Below are positions 8,332-38,804 of a stretch of 59,335 nucleotides of DNA, piece after piece. The notes beneath the pieces were generated by a model that saw only the letters and a list, made by a program, of their open reading frames with translations, was not told the DNA's origin and ran no database searches. Made by a program: the position numbers and the translations under genes. Origin of the DNA: Clostridium sp. (lineage in GTDB: Bacteria > Bacillota > Clostridia > Clostridiales > Clostridiaceae); the NCBI RefSeq assembly GCF_021372645.1, contig NZ_JAJFUC010000068.1:1-59335 (forward strand), read 5' to 3'. Each line of letters starts with the position of its first letter. Position 1 is the first letter of the stretch.

Positions 8332-9852
8332 ATGGAGAAATTAACATTACAAAATTTAGAGGGTGTATTGTGGTCATGTGCAGATATTTTAAGAGGTGAA
8401 TTATCGGCCGCAGAATATAAAGATTACATATTTGGATTATTATTTTTAAAGAGATTAAATGATGAATTTGATGAAGAAAGAGAAATTAGAAATAAGGAAT
8501 TTGCTGAGCAGGGAATGGTTGCAGAAGAAGTGGAAATGCTGTTAGATGATAGTTCTATTTATGAGACTTTTTATGTACCTGAAAGTGCAAGATGGAGTAA
8601 GCTCAAGAATTTGAATTTAAATGTAGGACCAGAGTTAGATAAGGCTTTTAAAGCATTAGAAGATGAGCCTAAAAATGCAGAGCTTATAGGAGTTCTTACT
8701 ACAGCTAACTATAATGATAAAGAAAGAGTTCCAGACAAGAAGCTTTCACAACTTCTTTTGTTACTTGATACTATTAATCTTGCAAACTCTAATCTTGAAT
8801 CAGAAGATATATTGGGAGATGCTTACCAGTATTTAATAAAACAATTTGCAGATGAAGGCGGGAAAAAAGGCGGAGAATTTTATTCTCCAACAGAAATTGT
8901 TAAAATAATGGTAAATATTTTAAAACCACAAGAAGGTGATAGAATCTACGACCCAACTTCTGGTTCAGGTGGTATGCTTATTCAATCATTGCAATACATA
9001 AAGAATCAAGGTGGAAATTATAAAAACATATCTTTATTTGGTCAAGAAATTAACCTTTCTACATGGGCAATATGTAAGATGAATATGTTATTCCATGGAG
9101 CTAAGGGTGCAGATATTCAAAAAGGAGATACAATTAGAGAACCTAAACATACAGAGGGTGGAGTTTTAAAGACATATGATAAGGTATTGGCAAATCCTCC
9201 TTTTAGTTTGAGTAACTGGGGATTAGAAGAAGCAAGTGCTGACCAATATCATAGATTCCCATATGGAATACCACCTAAATCCTATGGAGACCTTGCTTTT
9301 GTATCTCATATGGTAGCAAGTCTAAATGTAAAAGGTAAGATGGCGTCAGTAGTGCCTCATGGAGTTTTATTTAGAGGTGGAGCAGAAGGAAAGATAAGAG
9401 AAGGTTTTTTAAAGGATGATTTAGTTGAAGCTATAATTGGATTACCACAAAATATATTCTATGGTACAGGTATTCCTGCGGCCGTTATAGTGATTAATAA
9501 GAATAAGCCAGAAGATAGAAGAAATAAGGTTTTATTTATAGATGGAAGTAACGATTTTGTTAAGGATGGAAACAAGAATAGAGTAAGAGATGAAGATATA
9601 GACAAAATAGTTAAGGCTTATGATGAATATATAGATGTAGAAAAGTATGCAAATGTAGTTGATATAGAAGCTATAAAGGAAAATGATTATAACCTAAATA
9701 TCAGTAGATATGTGGATACAAGTGAAGAAGAGGAAGAGGTAAATATTGAAGCAGTTATTGGGGAGATAAACGATTTAAGAGTAAAAGAAGAAGAGATAGG
9801 ATTAAGGTTGAATGGTTATTTGAAAGAATTAGGGTTTGAAGAAATAGAGTAG
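8332..9852 (+). CDS. hsdM: type I restriction-modification methyltransferase subunit
   Basis: 506 aa, normal length for HsdM. It methylates adenine as part of the M2S and R2M2S complexes. An N-terminal helical HsdM_N domain (about 5-160) is followed by the catalytic domain with SAM motif I YDPTSGSGGML (near 205-215) and motif IV NPPF (near 288). FGQEINLSTWA and YGTGIPAAVIVI are further family blocks. The ribosome binding site CGAGGAG precedes ATG 8332. It heads the operon hsdM - small membrane protein - hsdS - ATPase/TOPRIM - hsdR. The region just upstream (about 8228-8260) holds TAGACA and TAAACT boxes at a poor spacing, so the promoter is not certain. Confidence 0.97.
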   Translation: MEKLTLQNLEGVLWSCADILRGELSAAEYKDYIFGLLFLKRLNDEFDEEREIRNKEFAEQGMVAEEVEMLLDDSSIYETFYVPESARWSKLKNLNLNVGPELDKAFKALEDEPKNAELIGVLTTANYNDKERVPDKKLSQLLLLLDTINLANSNLESEDILGDAYQYLIKQFADEGGKKGGEFYSPTEIVKIMVNILKPQEGDRIYDPTSGSGGMLIQSLQYIKNQGGNYKNISLFGQEINLSTWAICKMNMLFHGAKGADIQKGDTIREPKHTEGGVLKTYDKVLANPPFSLSNWGLEEASADQYHRFPYGIPPKSYGDLAFVSHMVASLNVKGKMASVVPHGVLFRGGAEGKIREGFLKDDLVEAIIGLPQNIFYGTGIPAAVIVINKNKPEDRRNKVLFIDGSNDFVKDGNKNRVRDEDIDKIVKAYDEYIDVEKYANVVDIEAIKENDYNLNISRYVDTSEEEEEVNIEAVIGEINDLRVKEEEIGLRLNGYLKELGFEEIE

Positions 9853-32850: not shown

Positions 32851-33321
32851 ATGTCAAAGAAAACAATGAATAAAAATGCACAAGAAGAGTTCTTAAGGTT
32901 AACTTTAAGTGAACAAATAGAACTACTAAATAATAAAATTTCAACTGGTGGCACTGAAGCTATATCAGATTTAGGATTTAGTTATACATGGGTCACGGGA
33001 AAAATGGCAGAGCAAGGCTGTTTCTACGTAGCATCCATTAAGAAGTTTATAAAAGAAGATATAGCAAGCTCTTTTACAGACAAAGAAGTAGCAGTATTAA
33101 GAGCTATGATACAAGATTATGATAAGTTTAAAAATGCTAAATCTGATATAAGAATGAGTGCAGGAACTTGTGGAGAAAAACTTACCACGAGAAGTATAAC
33201 ATTAGATTCGCAGATTAATTTAGATTGGAATAAATTCTGTAAAAATAATTCTTTTGTTTCTAACAAAGATTTAGTGAGTTATGCACTAAAGAGTTTTATG
33301 TCAAAATACGGAGAGAGCTAA
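32851..33321 (+). CDS. HTH plus RHH-like DNA-binding protein
   Basis: 156 aa. The N-terminal part (LTLSEQIELLNNKISTGG... then AISDLGFSYTWVTGKMAEQG) has the layout of a helix-turn-helix family seen in Firmicutes plasmids and phages. The C-terminal part (RSITLDSQINLDWNKFCKN, KDLVSYALKSFMSKYG) reads as a ribbon-helix-helix dimer domain. I infer a transcription regulator or a partition/replication accessory. Its ribosome binding site GGAGGT is trapped in the hairpin at 32804-32841, so output is probably controlled after transcription. Confidence 0.65.
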   Translation: MSKKTMNKNAQEEFLRLTLSEQIELLNNKISTGGTEAISDLGFSYTWVTGKMAEQGCFYVASIKKFIKEDIASSFTDKEVAVLRAMIQDYDKFKNAKSDIRMSAGTCGEKLTTRSITLDSQINLDWNKFCKNNSFVSNKDLVSYALKSFMSKYGES

Positions 33322-33491
33322 AGAGCAAAGCTCTTTGGCTCTCAGGATAAAGGGGTAAGTTAGAATTAAGGGATGCAGAATTAGGTGTATAGAATTAAGA
33401 AGGGAAGAATTAAAGAATTCAGGATTAAGGGATAAGGGTTCAATTGAAAATATATTTATTATATGAAGATAAACATTATACAAAATATGTA

Positions 33492-33520
33492 TTTACATAA
33501 TGTTTATTTAATGGTAAAAT
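33492..33520 (+). promoter_or_regulatory. sigma-A promoter of leader/sRNA
   Basis: TTTACA (33492-33497), 17 bases, TAAAAT (33515-33520). The core is nearly the same as the promoter at 20434. GGATTAAGGGATAAGGG lies about 55 bases upstream. Confidence 0.75.
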
Positions 33521-33526
33521 ATAATA

Positions 33527-33668
33527 AATAATTTAATATTGAATTAGTTCATAAAGGGCTTAGTACATGAATGTGTATTCACGATTGTAATAAGAGTTTG
33601 TTATTTAAAGGAAAAGACTATTAGAGTGTTAATAGTCTATATTTAATTAACAAGCTCTTATTTTTTTT
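33527..33668 (+). ncRNA. structured leader or small RNA before the four-helix genes
   Basis: A 21-bp stem (33589-33609 with 33642-33662; one G-U pair, one mismatch) encloses a perfect hairpin GACTATTA / TAATAGTC (33616-33637) and ends in eight T. It is terminator-shaped. The first four-helix gene starts 25 bases after the T-tract, so this is either an attenuating leader or an independent RNA of about 140 nt. Confidence 0.65.
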
Positions 33669-33692
33669 ATTAAAAATAAGGAGAAAAGAGAT

Positions 33693-34022
33693 ATGGAGAA
33701 TTACTCTGTTAAAGACTTTAGAAGTCTTATTGTTTACAAAAGAACCTTGGAATTATATAAGGTTGCAACTACAAATGAAGATTATGATGAATCTAATAGA
33801 TTTAAGATAAAAAAAGCAATTAGCAGGATTGCACAATATATTGCTAAAAGTACAGGAGATTGCTTATACCTTAATTCCGTCATCTATGACCTGAATAAGG
33901 CTCTAAAGTGGACTTACGAAGCAGACAAGCTGTTAAAGACTAAAGTTGAAAAGAATGAACTATCACAAATTAGAAAAATGGTTTTTGGATTAAAAAAGAA
34001 AATGGAGGAAGTAAAGAAATGA
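33693..34022 (+). CDS. four-helix-bundle protein (Avd/S23-like), 109 aa
   Basis: The start VKDFRSLIVYKRTLELYKV matches the DFR-L--Y---L start of the S23/Avd-like four-helix family, and the pattern of four amphipathic helices fits. It lacks the usual central SEGVAAQICEG-type block and is more divergent than its neighbour. AAGGAG precedes ATG 33693. The stop overlaps the next start by four bases (ATGA), so the pair is made together, possibly as a mixed oligomer. Avd itself is an RNA/reverse-transcriptase-binding pentamer in diversity-generating retroelements; none is seen here. Confidence 0.7.
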   Translation: MENYSVKDFRSLIVYKRTLELYKVATTNEDYDESNRFKIKKAISRIAQYIAKSTGDCLYLNSVIYDLNKALKWTYEADKLLKTKVEKNELSQIRKMVFGLKKKMEEVKK

Positions 34023-34456
34023 AGACAATTATAGATGCTGAAACTGATTATTTAGAGGAATTAGAAGAAAAAGATATTATAATTAAAGATTTCAGAAAGC
34101 TTAAAGCCTATCAGCTAAGTTTGAAATTTATTAAACAATGTTTAGAAGTAATAAATTCATTGCCACCTTGCGAGGAATATATACTGAAACAGCAGTTATT
34201 GCGCGCAAGTGAGGGCGTGGCCGCCCAGATATGTGAAGGAAATTCGCAGTTATATAAAAAGCGAGAGGTATCATTTATGTCTATTGCGATAGGAAGTCTA
34301 TGTGAGAGTCAATGCCATTTAGATATAGCTCTTATTAATGGGTATATAACAAAAGAGATGCATGCTGAAATTGAAGCTACTGCAATTGAAATCAAGAAAT
34401 TATTAGTTACGTATATTAGAAATCTATTAAGTTCTGGAGATGCGGTCAAAAGTTAA
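34019..34456 (+). CDS. four-helix-bundle protein (S23/Avd-like), 145 aa
   Basis: Residues about 22-140 match the four-helix family: IKDFRKLKAYQLSLKF, LKQQLLRASEGVAAQICEGN (near 55-74) and EVSFMSIAIGSLCESQCHL. An N-terminal 20-residue acidic extension precedes. The codons around 34200-34225 (GCGCGCAAGTGAGGGCGTGGCC) are locally GC-rich. Family members bind RNA or scaffold other proteins. It is followed by a hairpin and then by five tandem 184-bp structured repeats, an arrangement I do not know from described systems. Confidence 0.85.
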   Translation: MKTIIDAETDYLEELEEKDIIIKDFRKLKAYQLSLKFIKQCLEVINSLPPCEEYILKQQLLRASEGVAAQICEGNSQLYKKREVSFMSIAIGSLCESQCHLDIALINGYITKEMHAEIEATAIEIKKLLVTYIRNLLSSGDAVKS

Positions 34457-34460
34457 AAAA

Positions 34461-34491
34461 TGCATGATAGGTAGTAAATATCTATCATGCA
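34461..34491 (-). terminator. 10-bp hairpin, T-tract on minus strand
   Basis: TGCATGATAG (34461-34470) and CTATCATGCA (34482-34491) pair perfectly, flanked by six A on each side. Only the minus strand reads stem then T-run, so it would stop a leftward transcript from the repeat array; on the plus strand it is just a stem after the four-helix genes. Confidence 0.6.
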
Positions 34492-34596
34492 AAAAATAAG
34501 TACAAAAAGTCGGTCGTATAACTATTTTTATAATTCTTTTAATTATCAATGTTAATTATAAAAATCCCACTTCACATATTAAATTATAGTTAAGAC

Positions 34597-34631
34597 TATC
34601 AATTACTATTCCTCCGGGTAACTAATTGATA
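34597..34631 (+). ncRNA. hairpin with C-rich loop
   Basis: TATCAATTA (34597-34605) pairs with TAATTGATA (34623-34631). The 17-nt loop contains TTCCTCCGGG, an exposed anti-ribosome-binding-site sequence like the C-rich loops of Gram-positive small RNAs. On the other strand the loop holds GGAGGAA. No promoter is obvious. Confidence 0.4.
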
Positions 34632-34793
34632 AACATTGAAATATTAAAGAGTTAAATAGAAAAGAACTTGTGTTATATAAGTAATGTTATTTATATAATT
34701 ACAATTTCAAGATTTAGAATATATAAATCTAAAGAGCTAAGTTACTGATAAGTTGTTATCACAAACCTAAGTGAGTTGATATCATAAACCAAA

Positions 34794-35670
34794 AATGGAG
34801 CATTTAAAATATAACAACTATATAAAAGCAGATGGCAATTTGAAGATGCTCCATTCGATTTACATTATTTTAATTTTAGCATTTATCCAAAATGTAGTGC
34901 TTAAAGCAAGGTTTTAGCAATACCTTAAGTTTTTGTTTATGATATAAAACTTAAAGTAATTTGTGAAATAAATCTAAATAGAGCATTTAAGAGAGAGTAA
35001 CTTATATATAAACCAGATAGCTATTGTAAAATGCTCCATTCGTTTTAATCTGTTTTAATGTTGGCAGTTATCTCAAGTGTAGTGATTAAATCAGCATGTC
35101 AGTAATATTTCAAAGTTCTATTTGTAATATTAAACTAAAAGTAACTGGTGCAATAAGCCTAAATGGAGCATTTAAGAGATGGTAACTTAATATAAACCAG
35201 ATAGCGATTGTAAAATGCTCCATTCGTTTTAATCTGTTTTAATTATAGCAGTTATCTTAAGTGCAGTGATTAAATCAGCATGTCAGTAATAGTCCAAAGT
35301 TTTATTTGCAATATTTAAACTCAAAGCAACTGGTGTAATAAACCTAAATGGAGCATTTAAGATATGCCAACTTATATATAAACCAAATAGCGATTGAAGA
35401 TGCTCCATTCCATTTAATCTGTTTAAATTTAGGCACTTATTCCAAATGTAGTGGTTAAAGCAAGGTTTTGTAAATGTCTCAAATTTTTATTTGTGATATT
35501 AACTTAAAGTAATTTGTTTCATAAGCTCAAAATGGAGCATTTAAAATATAACAACTCCATATATAAAGCAGGTAGCAATTTGAAGATGCTCCATTCGATT
35601 TACATTATTTGAATTTTGCCATTTATTCAAAATGCAGTGCTTAACACAAAGTTTTAGCAATACATTAAGA
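34794..35670. repeat. five tandem 184-bp units, each with one conserved stem
   Basis: Units start at 34794, 34977, 35162, 35347 and 35531 (spacings 183, 185, 185, 184). Each begins AATGGAGCATTT (AATAGAGCATTT in unit 2) and about 50-65 bases later has the complement AGATGCTCCATT or AAATGCTCCATT. The rest of the unit (TTTAATCTGTTTTAAT, then TAGTGNTTAAA and AAAGTAA-TTG) is also shared. Units 1 and 5 are closest to each other, as are 2, 3 and 4. No frame is open through the array. An RNA array, a recombination target or a protein-binding array are all possible. Confidence 0.85.
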
Positions 35671-35785
35671 TGTATTTTGCTAAGATATACAATCAAAATA
35701 GAAAAAATCATATCTACTAATAGTAAAGTAGATTTTCGTATTAAATTTAAATTATTAAAAGTGAAAAAGAAAGGAAAAATAAAAA

Positions 35786-36271
35786 ATGTTAAATAGAAAA
35801 GCTATAAATAAGCATAAACAAAATAAGGAAATAGCATTATTAAAAAATGATAAAAAATTATTGAAAGATACAAATGAAGAATTTACAAAAGAATTTATAG
35901 ACCATATTAATATGCTTCAAAAAGTAATTCAAAATTTGAAAAATGAATGTAAAATAGACATAAATCTTTATCAAGAGAATATAAAAAATAATAAATTAAG
36001 TAAGACAGTAAAAACATCTGATGAAGCAATAGAACTTATAAATAATACTAATTTATTTAAATATTTTGGTTTTAATTATAATGAAAAAGAAGTTTTTAAA
36101 TTAGATGTACCAGTGGAAGTTAAATATATAGCTTATAAAATAAATAATACTAAAGAGGAATATGAAAATAGAATAAATGAATTATCTGAAAAATATGGCT
36201 TAAATAATAGTAAGCGTCAAAATTTTGGTACCTATTTTAAAATTTTCATATGTATTAAAATATCCCAGTAA
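35786..36271 (+). pseudogene. coiled-coil protein gene cut by IS66
   Basis: The frame codes for a Lys-rich helical protein (HKQNKEIALLKNDKKLLKD...). At 36210 it runs into the left end of the IS66 element, and the last 20 residues before the stop at 36271 come from the insertion sequence. The native part is about 141 residues (35786-36209). The DNA to the right of the element does not continue the frame, so the 3' end is lost. AAAGGAAAAA lies before ATG 35786. Its start follows directly on the repeat array. Confidence 0.72.
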
Positions 36272-36297
36272 GGTAGTTATCTTTACTGGGATTAATT

Positions 36298-37920
36298 TTA
36301 TTTCTTATCTTTAATCTTCATATTTTCAGGAATATTATTTGACCAAGGCATAAGATTTTCTAGGCTTTCGCCATCGGATAAATCTATCTTAGATAGATTA
36401 TCAAATAGATAAACTAAGTATCTTTCTATAACTAGTTTATTAGCCTTAGCAGTTTCAACAATGCTATAAATAGTAGCACTAGAAGTGGCGCCTTTAGCCG
36501 TATTTGCAAACAAGAAGTTTTTTCTTCCTATAACAAAGGGCTTAATTGCTCTTTCAGCAGCATTATTGTCAACTTCTATAGAACCATCTAATAATACGTT
36601 TTTTAATCCTGGTAAATGCTTTTTAGCATACTCAAGTGCTTTACCTAATGGACTTCTTGGAAGAGCATTTTTGATTTCTATTTCAACATATTCAATAAAT
36701 TTATCTATGATTGGTGTTAATTGCTTAGATCTTACTTTAAATCTAACATCATAGTAATTTTCATCACTTGAATAAGATTCTCTAAGCTCTTTTTCTAGTT
36801 TATAAATTTGTTCACAATAATTAAACCCTATTATTGCTCTAGAATTTTTTAGGGCTTCTTCATCTAAATCAACTATTATGTTATGAAAGTATCTTCTTAT
36901 ATGAGCTAGGCAATATACTCTTGTGGCGTTGCTAACGGAATTATAACCACTATAACCATCAGTTTGCAGAAAACCTTTGAAATCTCCTAAGAAACTTTTA
37001 GGACAAGAGCTTGATCTAGTGCTTTGGTAATCATACAAAATTACTGGACCTAATTCAGTTTCATTCATGTATAACCACATGTATTTCTTAGATTTAGAAT
37101 CTTTTCCATTATCATTAATTACTTTAAGAGTAGTTTCATCAGCATGAATATAATTTCTATCAAGTAATTCTTTTTTCATATGATTATATATTGGTTCTAA
37201 AGCTTCCGCTGCGGACATAGTCCAGTTACATAGAGTTTGTCTTGAAAGGGTAGCTCCCATCATATCAAAGTAAGTTTCTTGCCTATAAAGTGGCATAGCA
37301 TGCTGATATTTAAGTATAATGGTATGGGCAATTAACTCATTAGAAGCCATGCTATTATAAAAAATAGTTTGTGGAATTGGTGCTGAAATTATATTACTCT
37401 CACCTGTTTCTTTTTCGCATGATTTACAAGCATAGCTGTAAATCACGTGTTCTTCGACTACAAGCTTAGGAGGAATATATCTAATAATCTCTTTTCTAGA
37501 TTTTACTCCAATTTCCGTAAGTGGTTCACCACAATCCCTGCAGTTAAGATTATCACCTTCTAATTTATGTTCAATAATAACTCTTTCTAAGTTTGCTAAA
37601 TTATCTTTTTTCCCTATGTAATTATTTTTCTTAGATCTTTTATATGTAATTTCCTCTAAAGTAGGTTCTTCTACGTTTGAATCACTAAATTTTTCAGCTT
37701 CGTTAAAAAGAGATAATTGGTTTACGTCTACTTGCTCACTAGACGCTCCAAATATCTTCCTATTTTTATTTGATATGACACCTTTTAAGAATTCTAACTC
37801 ATTTTTAAGTTTTTTTATTTCTTCATCTTTTGAGTTTAATTCTTTTTCCATAACTTCAACTTTTTCAATTAACGATTTAGTAGTTTCATCAAGTTCATTT
37901 GTAAGAATTTCGTGATTCAT
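36298..37920 (-). CDS. tnpC: IS66 transposase
   Basis: 540 aa. An N-terminal coiled coil (about 1-55) is followed by a Cys4 zinc finger (CRDCGEPL near 118, and CKSCEKET near 157) and the DDE catalytic domain. Catalytic Asp lie in YIHADETTLKV (near 256) and FLQTDGYSGYN (near 318), and the Glu is in DNNAAERAIKP. The C-terminal LMPWSNNIPE is typical. It looks intact. Confidence 0.96.
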   Translation of the reverse strand: MNHEILTNELDETTKSLIEKVEVMEKELNSKDEEIKKLKNELEFLKGVISNKNRKIFGASSEQVDVNQLSLFNEAEKFSDSNVEEPTLEEITYKRSKKNNYIGKKDNLANLERVIIEHKLEGDNLNCRDCGEPLTEIGVKSRKEIIRYIPPKLVVEEHVIYSYACKSCEKETGESNIISAPIPQTIFYNSMASNELIAHTIILKYQHAMPLYRQETYFDMMGATLSRQTLCNWTMSAAEALEPIYNHMKKELLDRNYIHADETTLKVINDNGKDSKSKKYMWLYMNETELGPVILYDYQSTRSSSCPKSFLGDFKGFLQTDGYSGYNSVSNATRVYCLAHIRRYFHNIIVDLDEEALKNSRAIIGFNYCEQIYKLEKELRESYSSDENYYDVRFKVRSKQLTPIIDKFIEYVEIEIKNALPRSPLGKALEYAKKHLPGLKNVLLDGSIEVDNNAAERAIKPFVIGRKNFLFANTAKGATSSATIYSIVETAKANKLVIERYLVYLFDNLSKIDLSDGESLENLMPWSNNIPENMKIKDKK

Positions 37921-37962
37921 AATTACCTCTTTAACATCTATTTTATAAATTAATTATACCAC

Positions 37963-37999
37963 AAAAACCCTTGAAAATAAAGGCATTTCAAGGGTTTTT
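37963..37999. terminator. 14-bp hairpin between tnpC and tnpB
   Basis: AAAAACCCTTGAAA (37963-37976) pairs with TTTCAAGGGTTTTT (37986-37999). On the minus strand it follows tnpB and may lower tnpC expression. Confidence 0.7.
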
Positions 38000-38010
38000 A
38001 AGATTGTTAT

Positions 38011-38361
38011 TCAAAAGCAATTACTTGATTTTATAGATTTAAATTTAGACGTTGTTCTTACTTCGTAGCCTTTCAGAATCCAGCGTAATTCTTCAACATT
38101 TACTTTTAGAGCTTCATCTGTAGTTATTGGCCATTTGAAGCGATTCGCTTCTAAACGGTGATAATATAACCAAAAACCTTCATCAAAGTGGAGAATCTTT
38201 AATTTATCCATTTGCTTGTTACAAAAAACAAATAATGCTTTTTCAAATGGATCTAACTTGAATTGATTTTTGACAATCATAACTAGTCCATCAATGCTTT
38301 TTCTTAAATCCGTGTAGCCGCAGGCAAGATAAACTTTTTCTACTTTATCTATATTTAACAT
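38011..38361 (-). CDS. tnpB: IS66 accessory protein TnpB
   Basis: 116 aa, full length. VYLACGYTDLRKSIDGLVMIV (shortened: CGYTDLRKSIDGL), FVFCNKQMDKLKIL and GFWLYYHRLE are the IS66 Orf2 blocks. It overlaps tnpA by seven bases and is needed for IS66 transposition. Confidence 0.96.
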   Translation of the reverse strand: MLNIDKVEKVYLACGYTDLRKSIDGLVMIVKNQFKLDPFEKALFVFCNKQMDKLKILHFDEGFWLYYHRLEANRFKWPITTDEALKVNVEELRWILKGYEVRTTSKFKSIKSSNCF

Positions 38362-38684
38362 TTTGCAGCTAACTCTTTGATTATTGAATATATTAAAGTA
38401 GTTTCACTAACCGGAATAGTTATATTAGCAGTTCCGATAGTAATTTTAACTTCCTTTGAATTTAAGATATTTTTTTCTATATTATCTTGCTTAGTATTTA
38501 ATGAAACAGCATGAAAAACAGGTGTTGTAGGATTTGTTGTAGTTAATCTTTTTTTATGATAATAAAATTGGCTTTTGGAAAGTTTATTTTCTATACAAAA
38601 ATCTTTTAAAGTTATTGTGCCTTTATAGGAATTAAATTTATTGATGCATTCTTCCCAACTGGCATTATCTAATTTTCTAGACAT
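38355..38684 (-). CDS. tnpA: IS66 accessory protein TnpA
   Basis: 109 aa. Residues 8-50 form the HTH-like region with LKDFCIENKLSKSQFYYHKKRL typical of IS66 OrfA (shortened: ENKLSKSQFYYHKKRL). The start ATG 38684 follows GGGAGGA on the minus strand. Confidence 0.94.
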   Translation of the reverse strand: MSRKLDNASWEECINKFNSYKGTITLKDFCIENKLSKSQFYYHKKRLTTTNPTTPVFHAVSLNTKQDNIEKNILNSKEVKITIGTANITIPVSETTLIYSIIKELAAKC

Positions 38685-38804
38685 ATTAGTCCTCCCATTA
38701 ATAATTATTTAATTTAACTTTATCAATGAGAGGACAGGCTATCTAGATACTTAATTTTTTACGCTTACGTATAAGTATTTAGTCTTTTAAGAAACTATAA
38801 ATGT

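Follow-up and report, generated by a model that had tools for sequence, protein, structure and literature searches.

What does a tandem array of hairpin-bearing units do between a pair of four-helix genes and a gene cut by an insertion sequence? The question is raised by a stretch of Clostridium sp. DNA of 59,335 nucleotides (the window, that is, the whole stretch analysed), for which a preliminary description had proposed that two Avd-like proteins partner the RNA of the repeats. In this study, we analysed the genes and the array in the window, compared them with relatives in the genus, the order and the class, and weighed the readings of the array against one another.

The four-helix pair, its leader and the hairpin array

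Two overlapping genes on the plus strand, four-helix gene 1 (33693..34022, 109 aa) and four-helix gene 2 (34019..34456, 145 aa), match the N-terminal and the C-terminal half, respectively, of a fused double four-helix protein. Gene 2 (PF05635/TIGR02436) reached 86.6 bits against PF05635, the curated cut-off being 33.8, and matched by sequence the S23-type chains 2rld and 2gsc; judged by its sequence, it is a member of the S23/Avd-like family. Gene 1 gave neither a PF05635 match nor any credible family match in the family scans. Its model, built from three sequences, comprised four helices (pLDDT 79), and the structures nearest to this model were 2rld and 2gsc, both weak matches (E 0.024 and 0.049; no structure reached 0.001), with the Avd chain of 8ub7, a diversity-generating retroelement (DGR) complex, at rank 17 (E 0.48). 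Gene 1 thus models with the S23/Avd-like fold, and the earlier view of two overlapping Avd-like four-helix genes was borne out, by PF05635 for gene 2 and by the modelled fold for gene 1.

Among 68 genomes of the genus, gene 1 was matched in three (the source genome, G051 and, weakly and with two stops, G020) and gene 2 in 15. G031 and G043 each carry one fused protein of about 262 aa whose second half aligns with gene 2 (E 2.3e-19 in G031), and the first half of the fused protein matched gene 1 weakly (20-25% identity in two fused proteins). G051 has an adjacent pair, of which the first gene matches gene 1 (E 1.3e-5) and the second is broken part-way. One fused relative weakly matched phrog_3206, 'Avd protein of DGR' (E 4.3e-4). 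No phage with gene 1 or gene 2 and no plasmid with gene 1 was found, and peptide-pattern scans, which distant relatives may escape, detected no viral contig with the fused protein, gene 2, or the protein X and contig C45 helicase described below.

Upstream of the leader of the pair lie degenerate short repeats of the AGAATTAAG type (33322..33470, plus strand), with top self-match at lag 8 (0.66) and lag 7 (0.60). This periodicity of 7-8 nt is weak, overlapping tiles tying for third place among the window's 151 intergenic tiles, and in the 250-bp flanks of the pair short-repeat periodicity was not significant (p 0.39 upstream, 0.27 downstream). A promoter-like site, TTTACA-17-TAAAAT with TG ahead of the -10 (33492..33520, plus strand), scored 10/12 in the promoter scan; across the region such sites showed no excess, 23 being observed and 24.9 expected from shuffles. 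The leader (33492-33692) folds with a z of -4.08, and 0 of 200 shuffles were equally stable, in agreement with the structured RNA described earlier ahead of the gene pair. Its stability is owed mostly to a single long hairpin with a run of eight T behind it on the plus strand (33590..33668), which was recognised from the leader fold and the T run and has no entry in the terminator scan; we infer that it may be an attenuator or the terminus of a short leader RNA.

Five tandem units spaced 184-186 bp apart occupy 34784..35704 on the plus strand. TRF called 34784-35644 (period 185, 4.7 copies, 79% matches), and the array was aligned as five slices of 184-185 bp each, covering 34784-35704. A plus-strand hairpin with a 12-bp stem can form in every unit, at 34794..34855 in unit 1 and at 34977..35040, 35162..35224, 35347..35409 and 35531..35595 in units 2 to 5. 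Five units of 184 bp with an identical 12-bp stem had been claimed: the five units and their hairpins stand, the identity does not, as unit 2 carries AATAGAGCATTT and hence one A-C mismatch, and the supposedly equal unit length gives way to the measured spacings. The stem of three units contains a U-G pair. Pairwise, the units differ by 10-34%; divergence is greatest at the end of unit 5, and the closest pairs in the alignment are 1-5 and 2-3.

That the stem is kept and the loops diverge, as had been noticed before, was confirmed by the five-unit alignment, in which invariant columns number 22 of 24 in the stem, 22 of 41 in the loop and 54 of 111 in the linker. When the stem mask was shifted circularly, 4 of 176 shifts equalled this conservation, five copies making for a modest test. 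The covariation for which the preliminary description had proposed to look was found in none of the 12 stem pairs of the five units. A two-sided change occurred in one of 16 other predicted pairs, and the covariation term was unfavourable (+1.76). As a whole, the array folded somewhat more stably than shuffles (z -1.78 on the plus and -2.92 on the minus strand; 20 shuffles per strand). The leftward terminator suggested at 34461..34491 is present as a hairpin with 13-nt arms and has a T run solely in the minus-strand reading; the list of the terminator scan does not contain it.

The array is single-copy in its own genome, and the exact hairpin pattern occurred in 1 of 225 genomes of the order, namely the source genome, in a search that a diverged array would escape. 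BLAST of the array against phage and plasmid collections returned no match. Several other candidates were rejected: two viral-contig matches of the hairpin pattern fell within coding genes unrelated to it, had no tandem array at the site and were attributed to chance; DNA relatives of 33300-35790 were matched in 44 of 98 genomes (source included), with non-self pieces of at most 98 bp that we read as AT-rich chance; and Rfam, which gave no match in the window at the gathering threshold, returned two implausible snoRNA matches at a relaxed one.

Gene X and the primase-helicase module

The N-terminal part of a protein X (35786..36209, plus strand) terminates in AAATAATA, where it is interrupted by an element (36210..38768, minus strand) that we take to belong to the IS66 family. 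A profile made from the X sequences of three relatives matched the source genome in two pieces, at 35792-36271 in the window (profile 3-164, E 1.6e-8) and on contig C45 (profile 166-398, E 2.9e-24); compared with single relatives, the window piece was weak (E 0.002-0.008). Contig C45 terminates within the same IS66-type element and carries the remainder of X followed by a 684-aa helicase. The 8 bp beyond the element end on C45 are AAATAATA, identical to the 8 bp before the element in the window, whereas the right flank in the window, GTATAAGT, is unlike the left; the end of contig C47 holds a third right-end copy of the element with a flank that differs again. The simplest reading is that the IS66 copies were collapsed in the assembly or recombined. 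Because AAATAATA is duplicated in the window and on C45 and the right flank is GTATAAGT, it is likely that the sequence beyond about 38769 does not truly adjoin the left part, and genes there may belong elsewhere in the genome. The case carries the caution that an insertion sequence can join a draft-genome contig to the wrong neighbour. A structure model of X was unusable (pLDDT 38.7), and the matches of the X profile to solved structures, namely pentatricopeptide-type proteins, of which no stretch passed alone, and two weak unrelated ones, were rejected.

Run on 225 genomes of the order, the X profile matched 20: nine with a full-length X, the source genome in its two pieces, and ten mainly in the C-terminal region, 7 of these ten belonging to open frames 651-701 aa long. 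Of 391 genomes sampled from the class, nine matched at E 1e-5, with G043 as the sole full-length X and the source genome again in two pieces. Full-length X is restricted, among the genomes searched, to the window's own family. Two of the larger proteins with the X C-terminal region were scanned; one matched CHC2 weakly, short of the Pfam cut-off (E 0.0016), and the other had no such match. For the rest, we assume that these larger proteins resemble CHC2-finger primases.

The gene order around X is conserved in relatives. A RecD2-like helicase lies downstream of X in all nine other full-length-X loci, directly in seven and beyond further genes in two (L053 and L085), a DUF3991-TOPRIM protein lies upstream in seven, and a small divergent gene is present in five. 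The TOPRIM-type protein contains DUF3991 and Toprim_2 in the domain scan; plasmid records were matched by DUF3991-TOPRIM proteins in 1,220 cases and by helicases of the module type in 452. In G031, G043 and G051, where X has 370-419 aa, the four-helix gene comes after the RecD2-like helicase, X and the DUF3991-TOPRIM protein. The gene at 35786 had been suspected to be a third component disabled by IS66, and this holds up well: it matches the N-terminal part of X, and X with its helicase accompanies a double four-helix gene, located after the helicase, in 5 of the 9 other loci (L053, L054, L055, L082, L085). Since the four-helix gene is missing at the remaining four of the nine X-helicase loci, it is an optional partner of X-helicase.

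The source genome likewise has X followed by a helicase, with the C-terminal part of X ahead of the helicase on C45 and the N-terminal part in the window. Its gene order deviates in that the four-helix genes lie upstream of X and are split into two overlapping genes. One relative's TOPRIM protein found no match in this draft genome, a negative that proves little; the draft is 93.5% complete. As far as sequence comparison tells, the pair belongs to a conserved clostridial primase-X-helicase module, of which no prior description was found in open-licence PubMed Central papers, among the matches listed.

In the seven relatives that have both TOPRIM protein and X, the gap ahead of X is noncoding, AT-rich and 372-733 bp long, and TRF found no repeats of period at least 25 in these seven gaps. 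L086, outside the seven, has a 30-bp repeat in 2.1 copies in the gap before X. Alignments of the relatives' gaps with the array were weak and AT-rich only. In addition, a noncoding block that precedes the TOPRIM gene, or X in the case of L085, resembles the block in L053 with 70-82% identity over 107-144 bp in L054, L082, L083 and L085, and L084 has a counterpart with 81% identity over 67 bp; this L053-type block is a candidate origin, operator or RNA. As side observations, two module loci (L054, 3718-5235; L083, 16912-18429) encode proteins 80% identical to the window protein at 8332-9852, presumably a modification-methylase-like protein; genes at other loci resemble BREX, CBASS or Tn7-like parts, TnsA in L087 by test and the rest in our estimation.

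Readings of the array

We consider it probable that the window holds a rearranged, IS-broken copy of the clostridial primase-helicase module and that the array is the cis site of this module or the leader of X; for the array itself, our best guess is a DNA site acting in cis, or a leader, in a replication module that is decaying. Domain content and neighbours suggest that the module would replicate or process mobile-element DNA. X would be primase-associated, its C-terminal region also terminating larger primase-like proteins, and the double four-helix protein may serve as a nucleic-acid-binding accessory. The array would then either supply repeated hairpin DNA at which loading or priming takes place, or be a structured X leader grown by tandem duplication; with X interrupted, full use of the site has probably ceased. 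Because relatives have no comparable array and their gaps align with it weakly, it is position that argues for a role as cis site; likewise, the array being in no other searched genome, its link to the four-helix genes or to X comes from position and not from comparison.

The main rival, possible though on the unlikely side, is neutral tandem duplication, by which the array would be a satellite in a decaying intergenic region and the likeness of the stems would stem from recent copying and local gene conversion. The occurrence in one genome only, the broken X, the primase match that was not found and the uneven kinship of the units, which fits block duplication, are all consistent with it; however, copying alone predicts something other than a nearly invariant stem against about half of the columns elsewhere, in units that have diverged by up to a third. 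Alternatively, the units might be repeated operators or leader RNA elements that control X, with a regulator or the four-helix proteins themselves as the binding partner. The array does lie immediately upstream of X, and L053 has a CTCGAAC...ATAGAACCTC motif upstream of both the primase gene and X, and L083 and L084 have less exact versions of it ahead of X, which shows that elements can be shared among such leaders; yet the motif was not seen on reading the array, and the promoter-like sites of the region are no more numerous than in shuffles. We regard this alternative as rather doubtful.

The evidence speaks least for the original proposal, a ribonucleoprotein system devoid of reverse transcriptase, in which transcription of the array yields structured repeat RNA for the Avd-like pair to bind. 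The S23/Avd fold of both genes, the adjoining position of the array, the better conservation of the stem columns and a fold that beats 20 shuffles on either strand would agree with it. Against these points, the exact hairpin pattern is confined to 1 of 225 genomes, BLAST found the array in neither the phage nor the plasmid collections, the stem shows no covariation, and relatives link the pair to X and helicase instead. Furthermore, TRF found no tandem arrays in the 20 kb read at each of the other five double four-helix loci; the search for four-helix genes beside long repeats, another suggestion of the preliminary description, thus gave none in five, so that for double genes the association fails on the terms of that description, and single-domain genes go with repeats of another kind. 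The claim that no reverse transcriptase exists is correct for the contig of the window and not for the genome, which has three RVT_1 matches (contigs C103, C67 and C30), in our view group II intron-like enzymes. We therefore regard repeat RNA as an improbable partner of these proteins, and an Avd-repeat RNA system as proposed is not supported; the primase-helicase module with the array as its cis site or leader is the reading that we retain.

This module resembles several known systems in part. It shares with the S23 family (PF05635, TIGR02436) the score of gene 2 above the cut-off and, weakly, the structures nearest to the gene 1 model, but here the domain occurs twice, in paired or fused form, and within a primase-helicase cluster, and unlike S23 genes in intervening sequences of rRNA, the pair lies outside any rRNA gene (Rfam gave no rRNA match in the window). 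With the Avd protein of diversity-generating retroelements it has the fold in common, as the rank of the 8ub7 chain for gene 1 indicates, though the reverse transcriptase is absent from the contig; resemblance of PF05635 to Avd is also mentioned in the part of PMC10053308 available to us.

Adjacent primase-type and helicase genes that match many plasmids recall the replication modules of plasmids and integrative elements, in which respect the double four-helix partner is unusual and full-length X is particular to its own family in the genomes searched. A relative's helicase matched PADLOC typeIV_RecD (E 4.7e-68) as in Type IV-D CRISPR; we rejected a role as Type IV-D CRISPR/RecD defence part, the match being generic to the RecD2 family and one of 17. 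No cas families were found among the cluster proteins scanned or among the five window proteins scanned, and units of about 184 bp that differ throughout, unlike CRISPR arrays, are not repeat-spacer units. They are also far longer than the iterons of iteron origins, which measure about 20 bp.

Single-domain S23 genes between short repeats

The repeats of another kind were analysed in a sample of 23 single-domain S23 genes, comprising all 13 from the genus search (L039-L049, L051, L056) and 10 from 29 plasmid records (L126-L135), the latter chosen for taxonomic spread with their own flanks unseen beforehand. Flanks of 250 bp were compared at lags 4 to 11 with those of 92 control ORFs from the same loci. 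The top self-match lag was 7 in 36 and 8 in 8 of the 46 S23 flanks, versus 24 and 13 of the 184 control flanks, and a top lag of 7 or 8 was common to both sides in 21/23 S23 genes versus 3/92 controls. Periodicity of 7-8 nt exceeded first-order resamples (p 0.01 or less) in 37/46 flanks versus 8/184 in controls, on both sides in 14/23 genes versus 1/92. Only ten of the 92 controls were clostridial; in two of these, 7 or 8 was the top lag shared by both sides, and one was significant on both sides. Additionally, the match between the upstream flank and the reverse-complemented downstream one surpassed each of 30 resamples in 18/23 genes and 3/92 controls. These results demonstrated that single-domain S23 genes are strongly associated with flanking short repeats.

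The repeat word is locus-specific (for example, AGGGAGT, AGGGTGT, AGGTGAC, CAGTGAC and TTCACAG). Exceptions are L128 and L135, with repeats upstream only, and L132, significant downstream only; these three together with L040 and L049 also failed the inversion test. The hosts of the sampled genes include Clostridium, cyanobacteria, Gemmatimonadota, Alphaproteobacteria and Bacteroidota, and several genes lie amid operons: between nrd genes on the opposite strand, within cas genes, or before sufB. Double genes differ from single ones in this respect: across the six, the window pair included, significantly periodic flanks numbered 0/12 and none passed the inversion test; the double gene of L085 had top lag 7 common to both sides, below significance.

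Longer repeats were also seen beside single-domain genes. The S23 gene of L049 (genome G040) lies between tandem repeats of 169 bp in 2 copies and 141 bp in 3.8 copies (890-1233 and 1981-2518), which contain its 7-nt repeats, and L045 has a 54-bp tandem repeat. As these repeats hold the 7-nt words of their loci and no 184-bp-like sequence was seen, they were considered and not counted as instances of an Avd-repeat system.

Earlier accounts touch on parts of this association. According to the portion of PMC4990558 available to us, the intervening sequence in the 23S rRNA of Coxiella has inverted repeats at its termini, and heptamers repeated in tandem immediately precede its S23 gene; in the accessible parts of open-licence PubMed Central papers and among the matches listed, this was the sole documented S23-repeat link found. 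TAACTGA heptamer repeats in Beggiatoaceae, cyanobacteria and Bacteroidetes are described in PMC4679880, and its text does not contain the terms S23, four helix or intervening sequence. A general account of S23/four-helix genes with repeats was not found in open-licence PubMed Central papers, among the matches listed.

Taken further, and quite speculatively, S23/Avd-fold proteins might be the protein half of a widespread repeat-associated element that is often dropped into operons and whose transcript would fold into a long stem, imperfectly paired, that has the gene in its loop, like rRNA intervening sequences. The clostridial double protein would then be a domesticated version that serves the primase-helicase module by handling structured nucleic acid, and the 184-bp array its local substrate here.

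The short-repeat link of single-domain S23 genes may be a larger discovery than the array itself and deserves its own study. S23-type proteins have no known function according to the part of PMC4990558 available to us, and this function is now testable, with the conserved context of TOPRIM protein, X and RecD2-like helicase for the double form and the short-repeat link for the single form. Both the context of the double form and the repeats of the single form suggest that the substrate is nucleic acid with structure or repeats.
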